A program made the position numbers and the translations under genes. From Streptomyces subrutilus (GTDB lineage Bacteria; Actinomycetota; Actinomycetes; Streptomycetales; Streptomycetaceae): 64,000 nt of DNA. The notes beneath the pieces were generated by a model. The model saw nothing but the letters and a program-made list of their open reading frames with translations. It was not told where the DNA came from and did no database searches. The stretch is taken from positions 1,364,001 through 1,428,000 of the forward strand of contig NZ_CP023701.1 in assembly GCF_008704535.1 (NCBI RefSeq). The letters run 5' to 3'. Positions 21,149 through 30,970 of the stretch are shown in pieces (the first letter of the stretch is position 1; every line of letters starts with the position of its first letter).

Positions 21149-23074
21149 TCAGGAGGCCGTGACGCGCAGCGCGTCGGCCTTCTCGCCGGCCCAGGTGAGG
21201 GCGGCGGCGGCCGAGCGCTCCGGGGCCGGGGTCGCCAGCCAGCCCAGGAGGGCTCGGCCGCGGGAGACGGCGACGACGGCCGAGCCGGCCGGCAGGTCCA
21301 GCTCCCAGGCTCCGTCCGGGCCGGTGATGCGGTCGGCGGCGTCGGTCGGGTTGAAGCCGCCGATGACCCGTACGTCCTCGGGGCCGGTCCGGGCGAGCAG
21401 GACCGCGCGCCGTCCCTCCGAGGTGCCGCGCGGCGCGCCCGCGGACGGGAGGGCGGCCACGAACGCGGCGACCGCCCCGGCGGCCGGGGCGCTCGCGGCG
21501 ACGGTCAGCTCGCCGGGGACGGCGGGGGCGTCGGGGTGTCCGGCGCGCAGGACGCCGACGGGGACGGCCCGGTCCGGGACGCGGTGCGCGTCGAGCCATC
21601 CCAGGCCGATGAGCCGCCCGGAGTCGCGCAGTTGCGCGTGGACGGAGTCGGCGAGTTCACCGAGGGGGGTGCGGCCGCCGCCGCGCTGCCAGGCCCCGGC
21701 CTCGGGCAGGGCCCGGTCGAGGAGGACCAGTGCGTCCAGCTCCGGTTCGGTGTCCAGCAGGATGCCGCCGAAGCGGTCGAGGAAGGCGGCCAGCAGCCGC
21801 ACTCCCCCGGCGTTGGCCTGGTGCGCACCGGACTCGGCGAGGGGCGCGCCCGGACAGTAGGGCGGTGCGTGCAGGGCCGGGTCGACGCCCTCTGCGCGCA
21901 GGCCCTCGGGGTCCATGTCCACGAGGGCGTCCCAGGTCCCGGCGGCGCACGCGGTGTACACGCTGACCGTGGTGGAGCCCAGCAGCAGCGCGAGCAGTGC
22001 GTTGAACACGGGGGTGCCCGGCGCGGCGAAGGTCTCGTCGGTCCAGGTGAAGCCCCAGTTGGCCTCGGCGACGTCGGTGCCGCCGAGGAGGATCCCGGTC
22101 AGGTGGGAGGAGAGGGCGGCGGGATCGCGGGCCGGGTTGCCGACCCACTCGGTGTGGCCGAGCAGGTACCCGGAGCCCGCCAGGGCACGCTGCCGGGCGG
22201 CCCACGCGTCGAGGGCCGCGCGCGGAGCGGCCGCGTTCGCCAGCGGCACGTTGGCCATCCGGGCGGGACCGTCCGGGAAGAGACCGGAGATGTGGTCCCA
22301 CAGGCCGGTGATGGCGTGGCCGCTCCAGCGGGACCACAGCACCCGCAGGGCGGTGGGCCACCGGTCGAGTTCCTCGGCGGACCGTGCGGCCTCGTCGGTG
22401 AGGCCGCGTCCGGCCAGCCACCGCGCGAAGGCCTCGCGGCCGGCCGGGGAGGCGTCCTGGGCATCGATCGGGAGGTGCGCCTCGCCCGCCATGCCCTCGT
22501 TGCCGAGCTGGAGCGCGACGACCGGCCCGTACGGCGCCGCCGCCTTGGCCACGACCTCGTCGGCGACGGCGCGCAGCCAGCGGTCGGCCTCGGTCCGTAC
22601 GGCCTGGTCCAGCAGGCTCGGCAGCGGCTTGGCCTGTGAGGTGAGCACGGCGCCGTCCAGCCCCTGGTACGGGGCGTGCGCGGGCCCGCAGAGGCGGTCG
22701 GGCAGGCCGCCGAGCTGGACTTCGGCGTGGATGAAGGGGCCGGGCTTGAGCAGGACGGCCAGGCCGGCGCGGGCGGCGAGTTCCAGCAGCCCGACGACGT
22801 CGCGCTGGGGGTCGGTGCGGCCGGTGAAGTCGAAGCTCCGCCCCTCCCCCTCGCCGACCTCGTGGAAGCGCCACGGCAGGTACCAGGAGACGACGTCGAT
22901 GCCGAGCGCGCGCAACTCCCGTAGATTCGAGGCCCAGTTGGCGGGGTCGGCACGGTAGTAGGGGTATTCGCCGACGATGACGGGCCGGGCCGCGCCCGGG
23001 ACCAGGGCGCGGGCCATGCGGTGGCCCGGCCCGCGCCCGGCGGCGGGCGCCGGGGCGCTCGTGCGCGCGCTCAC
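21149..23074 (-). CDS. GH35-like glycosidase at the end of the azasugar-type operon
   Basis: 641 residues, starting at a GTG that overlaps the dehydrogenase stop (GTGA). It carries weak but ordered GH35 landmarks: VGEYPYYRADPANW, IDVVSWYLPWRFHEV, LKPGPFIHAEV, LQLGNEGMAG with acid/base candidate Glu193, and LLGHTEWVGN with nucleophile candidate Glu309. There is no signal peptide, so it acts in the cytoplasm. Family members remove beta-galactose, but this one is divergent and its substrate is open. Being translationally coupled to the aminotransferase-phosphatase-dehydrogenase trio suggests a task in the same pathway, for example trimming a glycosylated iminosugar. Confidence 0.75.
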   Translation of the reverse strand: MSARTSAPAPAAGRGPGHRMARALVPGAARPVIVGEYPYYRADPANWASNLRELRALGIDVVSWYLPWRFHEVGEGEGRSFDFTGRTDPQRDVVGLLELAARAGLAVLLKPGPFIHAEVQLGGLPDRLCGPAHAPYQGLDGAVLTSQAKPLPSLLDQAVRTEADRWLRAVADEVVAKAAAPYGPVVALQLGNEGMAGEAHLPIDAQDASPAGREAFARWLAGRGLTDEAARSAEELDRWPTALRVLWSRWSGHAITGLWDHISGLFPDGPARMANVPLANAAAPRAALDAWAARQRALAGSGYLLGHTEWVGNPARDPAALSSHLTGILLGGTDVAEANWGFTWTDETFAAPGTPVFNALLALLLGSTTVSVYTACAAGTWDALVDMDPEGLRAEGVDPALHAPPYCPGAPLAESGAHQANAGGVRLLAAFLDRFGGILLDTEPELDALVLLDRALPEAGAWQRGGGRTPLGELADSVHAQLRDSGRLIGLGWLDAHRVPDRAVPVGVLRAGHPDAPAVPGELTVAASAPAAGAVAAFVAALPSAGAPRGTSEGRRAVLLARTGPEDVRVIGGFNPTDAADRITGPDGAWELDLPAGSAVVAVSRGRALLGWLATPAPERSAAAALTWAGEKADALRVTAS

Positions 23075-24108
23075 GCGTCCCCCTCGGCGTGCGGCGGTAC
23101 GAGGACGACCTTGAGGGCGCTGTACTCGGCTCCGGGGACGGCGGCGAGGGCCTTGAACGCCTCCTCGTGGTCCGCGAGGGCGAAGTGGTGGGTCACCACG
23201 CGCTCCAGCGGCAGGGTCCGGGCGAGTTCGACGGCCTTGGGGAAGATCTGGCTGTTGTAGTCGCCCGCGCCGATGATCTGCAGGCCGCGCTGGAGCAGGG
23301 CCAGCGGCCGCACCGTGGCGGTGGCGTTGCTGTTGAAGCCCATGATGACGACCCGGCCGCGGACCGCGGCGTACCCGATGCTCTGCTCCAGGAGGTTGCC
23401 GACGGAGTCGACGACCAGGTCGCCGCGTCCGGCCAGTTCGGTGTCGTCGGGGGTGTGCACGGTGACGCGGCCGCCGAAGTCGGGGGCGTCGAAGACCTCG
23501 CGGTCCAGCCGGCGGCGGATCGGGTCGGGCTCGACGAGCAGCACCCGGGCCCCGTACAGCTGGGCGGCCATGGCGGTGACCACGCCCATCGGGCCGCCGC
23601 CGACGACGACCGCGCTCTCGCCGGCGGTGAGCCGGCCGGCCTCGATGTTGTTGAGGGCGCAGGCCAGCGGTTCGACGACGACGGCGCGGTCGAAGCTCAT
23701 GCCGTCGGGTATCGCGTGGCAGAAGAGTTCGGGCAGGCGGATGAACTCGGCGAAGGACCCGTCGTAGTCCAGGCCGACCTCGGTGCCGGCCTTGCGCTCG
23801 CAGAAGTTCCAGTGGCCTTCGAGGCAGGCGGGGCAGGTGCCGCAGTACAGGGTGGGGTTGACGATGACGCGGTCGCCCACGGCGAAGCGGCTGGCGCCCG
23901 GACCGGTCGCGTCGACGACTCCGACGGCCTCGTGTCCCATGACCACGCCGGTCTCGGCGGGGAACTTGCCGACCAGCACGCTGCGGTCGGTGCCGCAGAT
24001 GCCGCTCTGCGCGACGCGGATGACGACGTCGTCGGCGCGTTCGGGTACCGGCTTGGGGTGGTCGACGAGGGTGAGCGTGCGGTCGGCGGTGAGCGTCAGC
24101 GCCTTCAT
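23071..24108 (-). CDS. Zinc-dependent medium-chain polyol dehydrogenase (GutB1-like)
   Basis: 345 residues. Catalytic zinc ligands Cys38 (SGICGTD) and the GHE motif at His59-Glu60 are present, as is the structural zinc cluster CGTCPACLEGHWNFC and the NAD loop VVVGGGPMGVV. This is the sorbitol/threonine dehydrogenase branch. In azasugar pathways the equivalent GutB1 oxidises C6 of an aminopolyol so that it closes to a nojirimycin-type ring. Its start ATG overlaps the phosphatase stop (ATGA) and its stop overlaps the GH35-like start, so it is in the middle of a coupled operon. Confidence 0.88.
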   Translation of the reverse strand: MKALTLTADRTLTLVDHPKPVPERADDVVIRVAQSGICGTDRSVLVGKFPAETGVVMGHEAVGVVDATGPGASRFAVGDRVIVNPTLYCGTCPACLEGHWNFCERKAGTEVGLDYDGSFAEFIRLPELFCHAIPDGMSFDRAVVVEPLACALNNIEAGRLTAGESAVVVGGGPMGVVTAMAAQLYGARVLLVEPDPIRRRLDREVFDAPDFGGRVTVHTPDDTELAGRGDLVVDSVGNLLEQSIGYAAVRGRVVIMGFNSNATATVRPLALLQRGLQIIGAGDYNSQIFPKAVELARTLPLERVVTHHFALADHEEAFKALAAVPGAEYSALKVVLVPPHAEGDA

Positions 24109-25133
24109 GAGGCCTCCGTCGTGTCGGGGGTGGTGGTGGCCGCCGCGAGGTCCCAGTCCACGGACTCCAGGAGCTGTGCGTGGAGTTCGGGCGTGGACGC
24201 GGCGATGCACGACTTCTGGTTCATGGGGCCGAGGTCCACCAGGGAGGTGCTGCCCAGGTCCGCGCCGTAGGCGTCGGTGATCGTCACGCCGGCGAGGCGG
24301 GCGAGGTAGACGGCGGCGGCGATGTCGTAGGGGAAGAGGTGCAGGATCGAACCGCGGCCCACGCGCAGGAACTCGGCCTCGGTGTGCGGGTGGTCGCGCA
24401 GGACCCGGTTGCCGATGTCGACGAAGGCGTCGAGCTGGCCGGTGATGATGCGCGAGATGGAGAAGGTGCTGCTGTTGAAGACGAAGATGCCGCCGGTGTT
24501 GGCCGAGCGGTCGACGAGGTGCGCGTACGCGTCGGACATCAGGCGCATCGGGTGGCCGTTGAACTCGATCGACCAGAACATGCGGGTGAGGTCGGTGGTG
24601 CGGCTCAGGCGCGGCACGGGGGTGGTGAAGCCGCCGCTGGTCAGGCCGTGCGCCTCGTCGCCGTAGATCCACGCGCCGCTCTTGATCTCGACCAGGCAGG
24701 CGGCGGTGACGTCGGCGAGGGTGGGAGCGCCGTCGCCGTAGGGCGCCGCGGCGATGGAGACCATGCCCATCTCCAGGCCGGCCGAGGTGGGCCGGGTGCC
24801 GTCGATCGGGTCGACGACGAGGAGGACCTGCGGGTCGGGGGCGAGCTCCACGTAGGAGCCGTCCTCGGTGTAGAGGGCGAGCGGGATCTCGGCGTGGGCG
24901 CGCAGGTGGTCGAGCACGGCCCGCTCGGCCACGTCGTCCACGTCGAACTGCGCGTCTCCGCCCGGCGAGTCGCCGTGGACGCGGCGGGCGAGGCCGCGGT
25001 CGGCGTAGGCGAGGAGTTCGGAGCGCACGTGGGCGCCGAGGCCGGTGAGCAGCAGCCGCATCCGCTCCGCCTGTGCGGCCCGGTCGGTCCCGTCGGTCCC
25101 GTCGGTTCGCGTCGTCCCCGTCGTCCGGTTCAT
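24105..25133 (-). CDS. Inositol-monophosphatase family sugar phosphatase (YktC1-like)
   Basis: 342 residues. The lithium-sensitive phosphatase motifs are present: Glu90 (LYTEDGS), DPIDGTRP (Asp108-Thr113) and a late LFPYDIAAAVYLARLAG in place of WDxAAG. The body is longer than inositol monophosphatase and contains insertions such as MFWSIEFNGHPMRLMSD, so the substrate is probably not inositol phosphate. In the Bacillus azasugar pathway YktC1 dephosphorylates the 2-amino-2-deoxy-hexitol phosphate. The N-terminus is a Thr/Asp/Gly repeat (TTGTTRTDGTDGTD). Its ATG overlaps the aminotransferase stop. Confidence 0.86.
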   Translation of the reverse strand: MNRTTGTTRTDGTDGTDRAAQAERMRLLLTGLGAHVRSELLAYADRGLARRVHGDSPGGDAQFDVDDVAERAVLDHLRAHAEIPLALYTEDGSYVELAPDPQVLLVVDPIDGTRPTSAGLEMGMVSIAAAPYGDGAPTLADVTAACLVEIKSGAWIYGDEAHGLTSGGFTTPVPRLSRTTDLTRMFWSIEFNGHPMRLMSDAYAHLVDRSANTGGIFVFNSSTFSISRIITGQLDAFVDIGNRVLRDHPHTEAEFLRVGRGSILHLFPYDIAAAVYLARLAGVTITDAYGADLGSTSLVDLGPMNQKSCIAASTPELHAQLLESVDWDLAAATTTPDTTEAS

Positions 25134-26398
25134 CGGGCCAGCTCCGCGAGGAAGAGGTTCTCCAGCTTGTCGCAGATCTCCTCGGCCTGGTCCATGGTGA
25201 GGATCAGCGGCGGCCGGATCTTGAGGACGTTGCCGTAGCCGTAGCGCGAGGTGCGCAGGATCAGCCCGTGGTCCATGGCCTTGGCGGCGAGGTGGTTGGT
25301 GAGCTTGACGGCCGGTTTGCCGTCGGGCTCCGCGATCTCGAAGCCGATCATCAGGCCGACGCCGCGGACGTCCACGATGGGCTGGTAGCGGGTCTGCATG
25401 TCGCGCAGGCGCTCCATGATGGCGGCGCCGGTGCGGGTGACGTGGGCGAGGAACTCGGGTTGCCGGACGATGTCGAGGGTGGCGTTCGCGGCCGCGGCCG
25501 CGAGCAGGTTCGACCCGTAGGTGAACGAGTGGTGGTTGGCGGGGAGGCCGGCGAGCCGCTCGTTGGTGAGGATCGCGGCGACCTGGGCGCCCGAGCCGCC
25601 GAGGCCCTTGGCGGTGGTGATCGCGTCCGGCTCGACGCCGAAGTACTGGGCGGCGAACATGTGGCCGGTCCGGCCTATTCCGGTCTGGATCTCGTCGAAG
25701 ATGAGGGCTATTCCCTGCTCGTCGCAGAAGGCCCTTAATTTCTGCATGTATCCGTCGGGAGGGACGATGTTCCCGCCGTTGCCGGATATCGGCTCGATGA
25801 GGACGGCGGCGACGCGGCCGCTGCTGGCGTAATCGACGAAGTCTTCCAGCCGGTCCACGCACATCATTCCGCAGGTTTCCTTCTTCTGCCCGTAGAAGCA
25901 GCGGAAGCAATACGGGTCGGGGACCTGGAGGCTGCCCGGGAAGAGGTTCGGGAAGGGCTCGCGGCGAAAGGCGTTCCCGGACATCGAGGTCATCATCATC
26001 GTCTGGCCGACGTGGCTGCGGAACAGCGTGATGACATCGGACTTGCCGGTGGCGAGCTGGGCCATCTTGATGGCCCCCTCGTTGGCGGCCGAGCCGCCGG
26101 AGACCTTCGGGTGCACCTTCGTCAGGCCGCTCGGCGAGGTCTCGACCAGGCGCTGGACCAGCCCGTTGATCGGGTCGCTCTGGTAGGAGGAGGTCATGTG
26201 GACCACCTTGTCGAGCTGGTCCTTCATTGCGGCGATGACGACCGGGTGCGAGTATCCGAGGCTCAGGTTGAACGTCGCCGAGGCGCAGTCGAGGAAGCGC
26301 CTGCCGTCCTCGTCGTACAGGTAGACACCTTCGCCCCGTTCCATCTTTCGTTCACTGACGGGGTAATAGAGGTGATCCGTGACTTCCTTGGTGTCCAT
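25130..26398 (-). CDS. Class III PLP aminotransferase (GabT1-like) with a TTA codon
   Basis: 422 residues. Landmarks are SGGSAANEGAIKMA, ALIFDEIQTGIGRTGH and ITTAKGLGGSGAQ with PLP lysine 264. A cysteine-rich loop (YCFRCFYGQKKETCGMMC) lies between them. In azasugar biosynthesis GabT1 transaminates C2 of fructose 6-phosphate; this gene is the first of the operon and is followed by the matching phosphatase and dehydrogenase. Codon use is unlike the neighbours: Leu221 is TTA (25736-25738) and three isoleucines nearby are ATA. TTA needs the bldA tRNA, so translation should be limited to late growth. The exact substrate is inferred from gene order. Confidence 0.88.
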   Translation of the reverse strand: MDTKEVTDHLYYPVSERKMERGEGVYLYDEDGRRFLDCASATFNLSLGYSHPVVIAAMKDQLDKVVHMTSSYQSDPINGLVQRLVETSPSGLTKVHPKVSGGSAANEGAIKMAQLATGKSDVITLFRSHVGQTMMMTSMSGNAFRREPFPNLFPGSLQVPDPYCFRCFYGQKKETCGMMCVDRLEDFVDYASSGRVAAVLIEPISGNGGNIVPPDGYMQKLRAFCDEQGIALIFDEIQTGIGRTGHMFAAQYFGVEPDAITTAKGLGGSGAQVAAILTNERLAGLPANHHSFTYGSNLLAAAAANATLDIVRQPEFLAHVTRTGAAIMERLRDMQTRYQPIVDVRGVGLMIGFEIAEPDGKPAVKLTNHLAAKAMDHGLILRTSRYGYGNVLKIRPPLILTMDQAEEICDKLENLFLAELAR

Positions 26399-26715: not shown

Positions 26716-27318
26716 TCACACCGGCGGGCCCGCCAGGGCCGCCTCCAGCGCGTCGGGAGTGGTGAAGACGTGTCCGTCCAGGCCGAGTTCGCGGGCGGCG
26801 GCGACGTTGTCCGCCCGGTCGTCGACGAAGAGGATCTCTCCGGGTGCCAGCCCCAGCTCCCGTACGCACCACGCGTAGGCGGCGGGCTCCGGCTTGGCGC
26901 TTCCGATCCGACAGGAGAAGCCGATGACGGAGAAGCGGTCCAGCCAGGGGTGGGTGGTCTCGTACCGGGCGGCCAGCTCCTCGGGGATGTTGGACAGCAG
27001 GCCGAGGGTGTGGCCTCGGCCGGCGAGGGTGTCGAGCAGGTCCACGGCGTGCTGGTCGATCCCGCTCCAGCTGTCCAGGTCGGCCGCGATCAGGTCGGCG
27101 GTCAGGCGTGCGTCGGGTGCGATGCCCAGGCTCTCGCAGACGCCCCGCCAGTAGGCGGGGCCCGTCACGTCGCCGCGGTCGTACGGAGCGCGGTGGCCCC
27201 AGTACGCCGCCCAGAAGCGCTCCCGGTCGGCCCCGATGGTCTCCTCCAACACGGCCTGGGACGCGGGCGACTGGAGGCGTGCGATCACGCCGAACAGGTC
27301 GAACAGTACGGCTTTCAT
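26716..27318 (-). CDS. HAD-superfamily hydrolase
   Basis: 200 residues of HAD subfamily IA. Motif I is LFDLFGVIARL with nucleophile Asp7; the second aspartate of the usual DxD is a phenylalanine, as seen in YihX-type sugar phosphatases and haloacid dehalogenases. Motif II is LLSNIPEEL, the lysine is in GSAKPEPAAY and motif IV is FVDDRADNVAAA. It is expected to remove phosphate from a small sugar. Its start overlaps the transporter stop (ATGA), so it is co-translated with the transporter. It may supply a second dephosphorylation step for the neighbouring azasugar-type pathway. Confidence 0.87.
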   Translation of the reverse strand: MKAVLFDLFGVIARLQSPASQAVLEETIGADRERFWAAYWGHRAPYDRGDVTGPAYWRGVCESLGIAPDARLTADLIAADLDSWSGIDQHAVDLLDTLAGRGHTLGLLSNIPEELAARYETTHPWLDRFSVIGFSCRIGSAKPEPAAYAWCVRELGLAPGEILFVDDRADNVAAARELGLDGHVFTTPDALEAALAGPPV

Positions 27319-28553
27319 CCGTGGATTCCTTGGGTCGGGACGGTGTCGGGCACCGCTTCGGAGCCGGGGGTCCGCACTCCGTCGGGGTCGGGCGCGTGCC
27401 TGCGCAGCCACACGCTGAGGCCGACGCAGACGACGGCGAGCGCGAACAGGACGAGCGGAGCGGCCCGCACGTCCATGGTGTCGATCACCGCACCGAGCAG
27501 CGGCGGGAAGGCGACGCCGCCGATCATCGACGCGGCGATCACGTAGGCCCCGGCGGCGGCGACGCTGGGCACGGCGCGGTTGAGCCAGGGCAGGCAGGTG
27601 GGGAAGATGGGCGCGATCATCAGGCCGACGCCGAAGTAGGCGTACGGGGCGAAGGCGGGGACGGTCGCGAGCAGCAGGAAGCCGGCCATGCCGGCGCAGC
27701 AGACGGTGAGGATCGAGGGCGCGGACCAGCGCAGGCTGAGCGGGACGATGACGAACCGGCCGATGGTCATGGCGGCCCAGTACGCCGAGGTCGCGGTGGC
27801 GGCGGTCGCGGCGCCGTACCCGACGGCCTCCAGGTGGGTGGGCTCCCAGCCGCCGACGCCGGTCTCGATGGCCACGTGCAGGACGTAGACGCCGACGAAC
27901 GCGGCGATGACGGGCAGTACGCGCGCTCCGCGGGCCCCGCCGGCCTCGGTGGCCGCGGGCTCGGGTTCGCGGGCGGCGACGCCGCCGAGGGTCGGCAGGA
28001 TGAGCAGGCAGACGACGCCGATCCCGAGGAAGATCTGCGGGTAGCTGTCCGCGCCGAGCCAGCCGATCAGGGCGGGGCCGGCGATGGCACCCACGCCGAA
28101 GTGGCCGTTCAGCAGGTTCAGCATGGCGGTGCTGCGGCGGCCGAAGCCGATGGCGAAGAGCTGGTTCAGGCCGTAGTCGATGCCGCCGAAGCCCAGCCCG
28201 ATGACGAAGGTGCCGGCCAGCGCCAGGATCCAGGTCGGGGAGAAGGCGAAGACGGCCGCGCCGGCCGCCATGAGCACGTAGGAGGCTCCGAGGAGCGTGC
28301 GGTTGTTCAGCCGGCCGCGCAGGACGTGGTAGACGAGCACGCCGAGCAGGGCTCCGATGAAGTGGGCGCTCAGGCTGAGCCCCGCCACCGCGGGACTGAT
28401 GCCGAACTCCTCGCGCAGGGCGGGGATGGCCGGGCCGTACAGCGCCTGCAGGGCACCGATCACCACGAACGCCACGCACGAGGCGACGATGGCGACGGTG
28501 GTGAGCAGGGGCCGCGCCGTCTTGGACGGGTCGGTCCCACGGGTGGCGGACAT
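27315..28553 (-). CDS. MFS transporter of the azasugar-type cluster
   Basis: 412 residues with about twelve membrane helices, starting at an ATG behind GAGGAG. The halves are joined by a charged, alanine-rich loop near residue 185-205 (AAREPEPAATEAGGARG). The sequence ALREEFGISPAVAGLSLSAH and the FGGIDYGLNQLF helix resemble sugar-type MFS carriers of the FucP-like group. It is transcribed away from the DeoR gene across a shared operator region. It may export the product or take up a sugar; the direction cannot be told from sequence. Confidence 0.88.
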   Translation of the reverse strand: MSATRGTDPSKTARPLLTTVAIVASCVAFVVIGALQALYGPAIPALREEFGISPAVAGLSLSAHFIGALLGVLVYHVLRGRLNNRTLLGASYVLMAAGAAVFAFSPTWILALAGTFVIGLGFGGIDYGLNQLFAIGFGRRSTAMLNLLNGHFGVGAIAGPALIGWLGADSYPQIFLGIGVVCLLILPTLGGVAAREPEPAATEAGGARGARVLPVIAAFVGVYVLHVAIETGVGGWEPTHLEAVGYGAATAATATSAYWAAMTIGRFVIVPLSLRWSAPSILTVCCAGMAGFLLLATVPAFAPYAYFGVGLMIAPIFPTCLPWLNRAVPSVAAAGAYVIAASMIGGVAFPPLLGAVIDTMDVRAAPLVLFALAVVCVGLSVWLRRHAPDPDGVRTPGSEAVPDTVPTQGIHG

Positions 28554-28575: not shown

Positions 28576-28655
28576 GAAATGAACATCATCCGCGTTCGAT
28601 ACAGCGTGAAACTCACAACCTGCACCGCAGACTACTCACCGTGAATGTTCATTTC
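28576..28655. promoter_or_regulatory. Paired inverted DeoR operators between mfs and deoR
   Basis: GAAATGAACAT (28576-28586) and its exact reverse complement ATGTTCATTTC (28645-28655) lie 58 bases apart; the match extends with a small gap to GTTG on the outer side. The segment is AT-rich compared with its surroundings and covers the promoters of both divergent genes. Separated operators of this kind are typical for DeoR repressors, which can loop DNA between two sites. The adjacent DeoR protein is the obvious binder. Confidence 0.65.
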
Positions 28656-28715: not shown

Positions 28716-29483
28716 ATGAACGTGATGGACAGACACAAGTTCGTGGTCGCGCTGCTCATGAAGGAGAACCGCGCGACCGTCGCGGAGCTGGCCGGCGCCA
28801 CCGGCGCGTCCGAGATGACGATCCGCCGCGACCTGGAGGTACTGGAGTCGCGCGGCGCCCTGCGCCGGGTCCGCGGCGGCGCCGTGAGCAACCTCCCGGG
28901 CGGCGTCGAGCCCCCCTACGCGGTCCGCGCCATGTCGGGCGCACAGGCCAAGGAGCGCCTCGCGGCCTCGGTGATGGACCTGCTCACCGACGGCGAGACC
29001 GTCGCCCTGGACACCGGGACCACCGCCGTGGCCATCGCCCGGGCCATGGCCGGCCGGCAGTTCACCGTCACCCCGCTCTCACTGCACGCCGCCTTCGAGC
29101 TCTCCGGGCAGCCGGGCATCCAACTGCTGCTGCCCGGCGGCCAAGTGCGCCCCGAGGAGCTCTCCTTCCACGGCCACACCCCGGTCCAGACGTTCCGGGA
29201 CCTGTGCTTCGACACGTTCGTCCTCGGCTGCTGCGGGGTCGACCCGATCCAGGGCGCCACCGCGTACAACCTGGACGACGTCCAGGTGAAGCGGGCGGCC
29301 GTGGCGTCCGCCCGACGGGTCGTCCTGGTGGCGACCGCGGACAAGCTCGGCCGGACGGCCCTGGGCCGGATCTGCCCGATGGACCGGATCGACCTGATCG
29401 TCACGGACGCGCCGGAGAGCTCTCCGGTGGTCGAGGAACTGCGGGCGCAGGGCGTGGAGGTGGTCCATCCGTCGGACGGCTGA
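28716..29483 (+). CDS. DeoR family transcriptional regulator
   Basis: 255 residues. The N-terminal winged helix contains RATVAELAGATGASEMTIRRDLEVLESRGALRRVRGGA (residues about 18-55; the TIRRDL core is the family signature). The C-terminal part is the sugar-phosphate sensor domain: DTGTTAVAIARAMAG and a KRAAVASARRVVLVATADKLGRTA stretch. Such repressors respond to phosphorylated sugars. It faces the MFS-HAD operon across paired operators and probably controls it. A phosphorylated sugar inducer would suit the sugar-phosphate precursor of an azasugar pathway. Confidence 0.92.
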   Translation: MNVMDRHKFVVALLMKENRATVAELAGATGASEMTIRRDLEVLESRGALRRVRGGAVSNLPGGVEPPYAVRAMSGAQAKERLAASVMDLLTDGETVALDTGTTAVAIARAMAGRQFTVTPLSLHAAFELSGQPGIQLLLPGGQVRPEELSFHGHTPVQTFRDLCFDTFVLGCCGVDPIQGATAYNLDDVQVKRAAVASARRVVLVATADKLGRTALGRICPMDRIDLIVTDAPESSPVVEELRAQGVEVVHPSDG

Positions 29484-29927: not shown

Positions 29928-29941
29928 AGAAGGTGTCCACA

Positions 29942-30970
29942 GTGGAATTACCCGCACAGCGGTGCCCGGAGGACCGGGACCCACCCAGGGAACTCAAACC
30001 CGCGGAGATAGACCTCTACCGCGAATTCGCTGAACAGGGGCCTTTGGAACTGGAGCAGCTGCTGACCCGGCGGGACCGCGGCGTGACCATCCGGCTCCTC
30101 GACACGCTCATGGCGGCCGGCCTGGTCCGCCAGGCCGGCACCAACCGGTTTGCGGCAGCCAACCCGACGGACGTCTCCGGCCGACTACTCAAGGGCTGGG
30201 AGGACCGGCTGCAGGGGGCCCAGCTCGACCTGCTGCGCATGCGCGGACAGCTCGCCGAGCTCGCCCTCATCCACGCCACCCAGCAGCGGACCCTCCACGG
30301 GCCGCCCCTGGAGCGGGTCGAGTCCCCGGCGGAGGTGAACCGCATCCTCGACCTGGCCGCCGGCGAGTGCGAGCGCGAAGTGCTCAGCGCCCAGCCCGGC
30401 GGCGCGCGACCGGCCCGGGAACTGGGCGGAGCCCGCGACCGCGACCGCGACCTGCTCGAACGGGGGGTCCGGCTGCGGACCCTCTACCAGCACGCCGCCC
30501 GCTTCCACCCCCCGACGGTGGGCTACGCCGCCGAGATGGCCCGCCTGGGCGGCGAGTTCCGGACGGTCACGAGCGACCTGCCCCGCTGCCTGGTCCTCGA
30601 CCGGACGCTGCTGGTCGTCCCGCTGCACGGCGCCCCCGGCGGCGCCCTGATCGTGCGCAGCCCGGACCTCGTCGGCTTCGCCGCCGACGTGTTCGACGTG
30701 CTCTGGACGGCGGGCGAGGCCCTCGGCAAGGCCCGCGAGAAGGCGTTCCTCCAGGACATCGCGGAGCAGACGAAGCGTTCGGTGCTCCAGCACCTGGTCC
30801 AGGGCGAGGACGACCGGGCCACCGCCCGGGCCCTGGGCATCTCGGTGCGCACCTGCCAGCGCCACGTCTCCGACCTCATGCGCCGCCTCGGCGCCACCAG
30901 CCGCCTCCAACTCGGCTACCTGGCCCACCGCCACGGCCTCCTCGACCCCGAACCCCCCACCGCCCCCTGA
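29942..30970 (+). CDS. LuxR-type transcriptional regulator with TrmB-like N-terminal part
   Basis: 342 residues from GTG 29942 (AAGG nine bases before); GTG 29933 is the alternative. The N-terminal region IDLYREFAEQGPLELEQLL and IRLLDTLMAAGLVRQ resembles a TrmB-like winged helix, a long helix follows (about 85-115), and the middle holds a sensor-like domain (VVPLHGAPGGALIVR). The C-terminal LuxR helix-turn-helix is ARALGISVRTCQRHVSDLM (about 295-315). Regulators of this two-part design often control nearby biosynthetic genes in streptomycetes. It stands alone between the azasugar-type locus and the NodS-like operon, so either could be its target. Confidence 0.85.
   Translation: MELPAQRCPEDRDPPRELKPAEIDLYREFAEQGPLELEQLLTRRDRGVTIRLLDTLMAAGLVRQAGTNRFAAANPTDVSGRLLKGWEDRLQGAQLDLLRMRGQLAELALIHATQQRTLHGPPLERVESPAEVNRILDLAAGECEREVLSAQPGGARPARELGGARDRDRDLLERGVRLRTLYQHAARFHPPTVGYAAEMARLGGEFRTVTSDLPRCLVLDRTLLVVPLHGAPGGALIVRSPDLVGFAADVFDVLWTAGEALGKAREKAFLQDIAEQTKRSVLQHLVQGEDDRATARALGISVRTCQRHVSDLMRRLGATSRLQLGYLAHRHGLLDPEPPTAP

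Follow-up and report, generated by a model that had tools for sequence, protein, structure and literature searches.

A probable azasugar operon of Streptomyces subrutilus with an overlapping GH35-like fourth gene

The 64,000-nucleotide stretch of Streptomyces subrutilus DNA analysed here (the window; contig NZ_CP023701.1, positions 1,364,001 to 1,428,000) carries on its minus strand a compact run of an aminotransferase, a phosphatase and a dehydrogenase gene, followed by a gene for a protein resembling glycoside hydrolase (GH) family 35. The first gene encodes a class III pyridoxal phosphate (PLP) aminotransferase of the GabT1 type (25130–26398, 422 residues; Pfam Aminotran_3, E 7.4e-92), the second an inositol-monophosphatase-type phosphatase of the YktC1 type (24105–25133, 342 residues from its ATG; Inositol_P, E 1.3e-13), and the third a zinc-dependent aminopolyol dehydrogenase of the GutB1 type (23071–24108, 345 residues; ADH_N, 3.2e-27; ADH_zinc_N, 5.5e-8). 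The order of these three genes, read in a preliminary description of this DNA together with ATGA overlaps at the aminotransferase/phosphatase and phosphatase/dehydrogenase junctions, was borne out. The stop codon of the dehydrogenase gene in turn overlaps, as GTGA, with the GTG start of the GH35-like gene (21149–23074, minus strand), whose product of 641 residues is classed as a glycosidase or transglycosidase (Glyco_hydro_35, E 5.8e-23) and has no signal peptide evident by eye. The aminotransferase contains at residue 262 the sequence TAKGLGG, which we take to be its PLP lysine motif, the phosphatase contains DPIDGT at 108 as well as YDIAAA, and the dehydrogenase shows its zinc motifs, GHE at 58 and a four-cysteine motif at 89. 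The families by which a three-gene azasugar cluster is recognized (PF00202, PF00459, in place of which a HAD phosphatase may stand, and PF08240/PF00107) thus lie clustered together in the window. The same trio recurs in other Streptomyces, where the aminotransferases of the canonical loci are 81–96% identical to that of the window, and in other phyla, so that it cannot be put down to chance.

Of the likeness to the Bacillus proteins that had been proposed, that of the aminotransferase is the clearest, with 60.8% identity to the B. siamensis protein over 98% and 62.0% to that of B. spizizenii, which by these pairwise identities places it within the 40% identity limit of the GabT1 group; the phosphatase is 57% identical to its B. 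siamensis counterpart over 81%, and the dehydrogenase only 32.9% over 98%. These figures match those printed for S. subrutilis ATCC 27467 against B. velezensis (60.77%, N/A and 32.94%; PMC8382821). The signature published for azasugar aminotransferases, SGNXFRXXXFPNXXXXXXXLXVPXPYCXRC (PMC8382821), is represented in the window by SGNAFRREPFPNLFPGSLQVPDPYCFRC, in which every fixed letter is present and the spacer between FPN and L has five residues instead of seven. Read literally, the printed signature matches none of the 100 aminotransferase rows (some of them partial and several duplicates), the four Bacillus rows included, and for that reason its spacing seems to include alignment gaps. The region reads SGNAFRREPFP...LQVPDPYCFRC in the window and SGNSFRREPFP...LQVPDPYCNRC in B. 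spizizenii. In a quick-search tree of 90 aminotransferases, from which nine identical rows and one short row (L095) had been removed beforehand, the window enzyme falls into a set of 14 rows (support 98) with 13 rows from Streptomyces, Bradyrhizobium and Propionibacteriaceae. The join of this group with those of the Bacillus enzymes and of a second cluster in the same genome has a support of only 83, and no branching order among the three is therefore claimed. Azasugar-type aminotransferases with 66–72% identity also occur in Cylindrospermum (L051, L052), Fictibacillus (L048), Clavibacter (L049) and Streptomyces (L056, L057), where the stretch covered contains no relative of the window phosphatase, and a dehydrogenase relative is absent or only distant and 5–9 kb away.

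The genome is a single contig of 7,604,974 bp, the length given for S. subrutilus ATCC 27467 (GCA_008704535.1; PMC7018776). S. subrutilus is a reported producer of deoxynojirimycin, for which a C2-N-C6 cyclization from glucose has been reported (PMC6713920). Strain ATCC 27467 is one of the six known producers considered in PMC8382821, its trio being counted there as an azasugar "three gene cluster", and in PMC8466323 the strains S. subrutilus ATCC 27467, JCM 4834 and S. nojiriensis JCM 3382 are each credited with two azasugar clusters far apart, one canonical and the other disordered. The window trio is hence confirmed as an azasugar cluster already in print, and the proposal that the locus encodes azasugar biosynthesis stands in that the aminotransferase groups with azasugar and not with aminocyclitol enzymes by tree, motif and gene context, although not as a new candidate. 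Consistent with that, the window very probably holds the operon for a nojirimycin-type azasugar; gene-product proof for azasugars in Streptomyces was not found in the literature searched. With the three-gene cluster described by Beal and Horenstein (Bacillus gabT1-yktC1-gutB1; PMC8382821) the window shares the three families, the gene order and the fixed letters of the signature, but it adds the overlapping GH35-like fourth gene and an upstream HAD gene, and its dehydrogenase is just 33% identical to that of B. siamensis. The canonical Streptomyces gabT1-yktC1-gutB1 cluster (PMC8466323) resembles the window in its contiguous order and about equal length, whereas the main text of that paper makes no mention of GH35 or a transporter, both of which the window has.

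The unusual part of the locus is the GH35-like gene, which the preliminary description had listed among the neighbors and otherwise left unremarked. The literature searched yielded no description of a GH35 gene in an azasugar cluster, with supplementary files outside the search and with the neighborhood figures of PMC8382821 possibly showing one, and in that sense the GH35-like partner makes the window cluster a variant not found described. Among 80 named loci collected via the aminotransferase, a GH relative on the same strand and at most 4 kb downstream was found near the trio in 13 (L040–L043, L045–L047, L053, L065, L067, L073, L079 and L080), which belong to Streptomyces, Actinomadura and other Actinomycetota, Bradyrhizobium, Cutibacterium, and Bacillota of the Oscillospiraceae and Lachnospiraceae. 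When the best six candidates of each of 199 Streptomyces genomes were scored, full-length relatives (>700 bits) appeared in four (G000, G012, G014 and G146), each beside the trio, and the other GH35 matches listed reached at most 130 bits over the N-terminal part only. Further searches, in which the best three to eight candidates per genome were scored, gave at stricter E-values one genome of 396 in the phylum of the window (its own) and one of 391 in the class of L073 (L073 itself). Among 147 genomes of the family of L065 there were two, L065 itself and one on a contig as long as that of L053 (whose GH ends at a contig edge), both beside the trio and neither an independent case. Within the genomes sampled, the GH family is thus rare and never found away from the aminotransferase and dehydrogenase genes.

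The Pfam match itself (PF01301, 82.4 bits against a curated cutoff of 27) aligns only residues 27–126 of the GH35-like protein. Its AlphaFold model (14 rows; mean predicted local distance difference test score 87.3, predicted template modeling score 0.91) has as its top match by Foldseek and VIA IaSGT (VIA Z 28.7–29.5, root-mean-square deviation 3.2–3.5 over 532–541 residues), a GH35 β-1,2-glucosyltransferase from Ignavibacterium album (PDB 7vkw–7vl3 and 7x87; PMC8861115), followed by the GlmA glucosaminidases (Z 27.0–27.8) and then by GH42 and GH164. The model has the barrel expected of clan GH-A, with E193 after strand 185–191 and E337 at the end of strand 335–337 (strands counted manually), both kept in 19 of 19 GH rows. 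In that alignment the rows L022–L024, L042 and L046 have wrong N-terminal extensions; for the last two, the in-frame start used in the other GH alignment is an arbitrary one. Among the −1-site and catalytic residues of IaSGT (Y52, E102, N175, E176, N275, E343 and Y378; PMC8861115), the first four align with Y65, E118, N192 and E193 of the window protein, and E343 and Y378 with E337 and Y373 via the homologue L073, which bridged a gap left by a PDB search with the nucleophile region alone (nothing useful, best E 0.34). All six of these window residues are identical in every one of the 19 rows. The seventh, N275, is probably kept as N275 of the window protein, an Asn in the same strand for which two alignments differ by two positions: via L073 it is the first Asn of ANIN that falls opposite IaSGT N275, while in the other alignment it is the second that is paired with window N275, and this disagreement is why the residue is taken as probable only; L067 has Cys there. 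E309 was also considered as the nucleophile and was rejected, since 7 of the 19 rows (L045, L046, L047, L065, L067, L073 and L079) have Ser, Ala or Gly in its place and E337 is invariant.

In the +1 site the picture is different. The glucose-specific site of IaSGT is marked by Arg349 and by Leu or Met at position 100, and in the window protein Leu100 is replaced by His116, a residue invariant across the 19 rows, and Arg349 by Thr343, a position that is Thr, Ser or Val across the rows; it has to be noted that Arg349 is missing from many IaSGT homologues too (PMC8861115). The two proteins thus agree in fold and in six of seven −1-site and catalytic residues that are clearly kept, but differ in that they share only 16–18% identity, that the +1 residues are changed, and that the genomic context in the window is azasugar and not β-glucan. 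The GlmA exo-β-D-glucosaminidases (PDB 5gsm, 5gsl, 6jow and 8oug), the second-best fold group, have the same catalytic pair as IaSGT, but the Asp that is thought to serve the amino group in GlmA is Asn192 in the window protein, like in IaSGT. With the −1 site kept and the +1 site changed, the enzyme should, judging from these residues, accommodate a glucose-type unit at −1 and be capable of catalysis, and the other partner in the transfer, whether it receives that unit or gives it up, may be something different from a glucoside. From the gene context, this partner would be an azasugar.

The HAD, MFS, DeoR and GH35-like neighbors that had been named in the preliminary description were all recovered by Pfam around the trio. 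Upstream of the aminotransferase gene lies a gene for a HAD-family hydrolase (26716–27318, minus strand), joined by an ATGA overlap (27315–27318) to that of an MFS transporter and probable exporter (27315–28553, minus strand), whose start is read as the ATG at 28553 behind GAGGAG within a frame open to 28625. A DeoR-family regulator (28716–29483, plus strand; DeoRC 1.8e-39, HTH_DeoR 1.1e-12) is encoded divergently from the MFS gene. Downstream of it lies the gene for a LuxR-type regulator (29933–30970, plus strand), which of the compared loci only L040, L022, L023 and L024 have at the corresponding position. In Cutibacterium porci (L065), as in the canonical loci of Streptomyces, a HAD relative also stands upstream of the aminotransferase gene, and the proposed wider cluster gains support from the former, in which DeoR (on the opposite strand), MFS, HAD, an aminotransferase-phosphatase fusion, dehydrogenase and GH follow one another in the order of the window. 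The fusion (L065:9986–12151, 722 residues) joins the aminotransferase with the inositol-type phosphatase and so ties the first two steps of the pathway together; the three-gene cluster has also been reported for the skin species C. acnes (PMC8382821). In Bradyrhizobium (L043) and Anaerobacterium (L067) the trio is accompanied by GH and MFS genes, in Anaeromicropila (L073) by a MATE exporter, GH, PHP, a GT2 glycosyltransferase and a nucleotidyltransferase, and in Pseudobutyrivibrio (L079) the aminotransferase and dehydrogenase occur with MATE, GH, GT2 and PHP genes, no relative of the window phosphatase being found there. An exporter near the GH in L065, L043, L067, L073 and L079, together with a glycosyltransferase in two of these, favors a sugar-conjugated product. 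The S. rimosus-type loci L044 and L030 have the canonical trio and HAD, and no detectable GH, MFS or DeoR relatives in the stretch covered.

Between the MFS and DeoR genes, an inverted pair of GAAATGAACAT (28576–28586 and 28645–28655) provides candidate DeoR operators. With up to two mismatches, this sequence occurs three times in the window against 0.93 expected, two of the occurrences being the inverted pair; as 7 of 100 shuffles reach three, the count alone is weak, and the argument is carried by the conserved pairing, in that two inverted AAATGAACA sites at a spacing of exactly 69 bp were found in 5 of the 20 loci scanned (the window and its four closest relatives, L040, L022, L023 and L024), with one of the paired sites mismatched in L022–L024. 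Upstream footprinting likewise found a shared block mainly in these five loci. Upstream of the window aminotransferase gene, the only copy of AAATGAACA with up to one mismatch overlaps the start codon, so that an operator at this place was rejected and DeoR control of the trio is unsupported; in L044 and L030, exact copies stand upstream of the aminotransferase gene, about 290 bp off.

In the pathway proposed on this observed gene content and order, for which published work on related systems and on this strain supplies the sequence of reactions and the C2/C6 route, the aminotransferase would act on a ketose phosphate (probably fructose 6-phosphate) and aminate it at C2, following which the phosphatase would free C6 and the dehydrogenase would then oxidize it. 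The resulting amino-aldehyde would cyclize, giving a ring of the nojirimycin or mannojirimycin type, the exact product being a matter of prediction, and the MFS protein would export the product, with DeoR presumably governing the export unit at the least. The GH35-like enzyme, translationally coupled and of the retaining type, with a −1 site for glucose-type units and an altered +1 site, would be a dedicated partner that adds a sugar to, or removes one from, the azasugar or its conjugate inside the cell, and for such a sugar-adding or sugar-removing tailoring function we see roughly an even chance.

Several points weigh against this account. No gene for C2 epimerization or for a 1-deoxy step was recognized at the locus. 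Where the phosphatase gene is adjacent (29 loci), a GH is present in 11 and absent from 18, including all four Bacillus loci and S. rimosus L044, so that the GH is not needed for the core pathway. Furthermore, the same genome contains near 7.03 Mb a second azasugar-type cluster (L021; G000:C1:7025000-7042000), in which genes for a dehydrogenase, a ROK kinase, an APH-type kinase, a dioxygenase-like protein, an aminotransferase (65% identical to that of the window), a phosphatase, an AurF-like N-oxygenase and a class II tRNA-synthetase-like protein follow one another; the last match is weak and below the family cutoff, and together with the AurF-like gene it suggests further chemistry on the amine. 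The phosphatase and dehydrogenase of L021 (60% and 38.1% identical to those of B. siamensis) are nearer to Bacillus than those of the window, which means that the window cluster may make a different azasugar, and S. lavendulae CCM 3239 has only a cluster of the L021 type, deoxynojirimycin having been reported for S. lavendulae, possibly for another strain (PMC6713920). On these grounds L021 could be the source of the deoxynojirimycin and the window that of another azasugar, such as mannojirimycin, a galacto-type compound or a glycosylated one, which we regard as a real though somewhat doubtful possibility. It is opposed by the aminotransferases, of which that of the window is the nearer to B. 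siamensis (60.8% against 57.6%), by the Bacillus gene order, which the window keeps without insertions, and by the suggestion in PMC8466323 of a possible functional divergence of some disordered clusters.

A different explanation of the GH35-like enzyme alone is that it serves in self-protection, as an azasugar-tolerant copy of a glycosidase sensitive to the product or as a binder that buffers the latter, instead of in tailoring. Its overlap with the last biosynthetic gene and its association with the trio would fit such a role, as would its structural kinship to IaSGT, the E343G mutant of which was solved with deoxynojirimycin at −1 and +1 (PMC8861115); this ligand was picked by the crystallographers, however, and is a hint and not evidence of function. 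Among the candidates scored in the 199 Streptomyces genomes there is no second member of the subfamily, the remainder lying far below the full-length scores, and so no obvious sensitive enzyme that the GH would replace, and the catalytic residues kept in all 19 rows would be needless in a mere binder. Self-protection appears unlikely to us.

An aminocyclitol, or an amino sugar of another kind with no relation to azasugars, is a very improbable product of the locus, since, although ValM of validamycin shares the 40% identity cluster of the aminotransferase (PMC8382821), the window enzyme lies outside a set of 24 rows (support 100) that holds the aminocyclitol-type enzymes, has SGNAFR where a member of that set (L085; NGTTKMRAPFP...LHVPGPYCFRC) has NGTTKMR, and has among the 14 window proteins scanned no match to dehydroquinate (DHQ) synthase or GT20, genes for both of which adjoin the two members checked (L085 and L074); this reading was accordingly ruled out by tree, motif and gene context. 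The same tree places the aminotransferases of two Burkholderiaceae (L090 and L092; Candidatus Paraburkholderia kirkii and a Caballeronia symbiont) with the aminocyclitol-type set, to which they attach by a long branch of their own. A route of the galactosyrin type, which starts from a purine intermediate and proceeds without an aminotransferase (PMC11844564), does not fit the locus either.

Returning to the azasugar operon and its tailoring partner, a more far-reaching and rather improbable extension would be that the GH-carrying loci form a rare subtype of azasugar operon, scattered across taxa, with its own GH35 transglycosidase, the +1 site of which, with the invariant His116, has been rebuilt for an azasugar, such that a glycosylated and thereby masked azasugar is made and exported, to be unmasked by the GH itself or a counterpart. 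If this were true, the compound for which azasugar producers have been screened may have been the wrong one. Azasugars underlie drugs for diabetes and lysosomal storage diseases, and how bacteria finish them, protect themselves from them and deliver them is poorly known. The window belongs to a classical producer strain with two rival azasugar clusters, and its GH35-like partner, which is also present in Cutibacterium porci, offers a concrete candidate for azasugar tailoring or self-protection.

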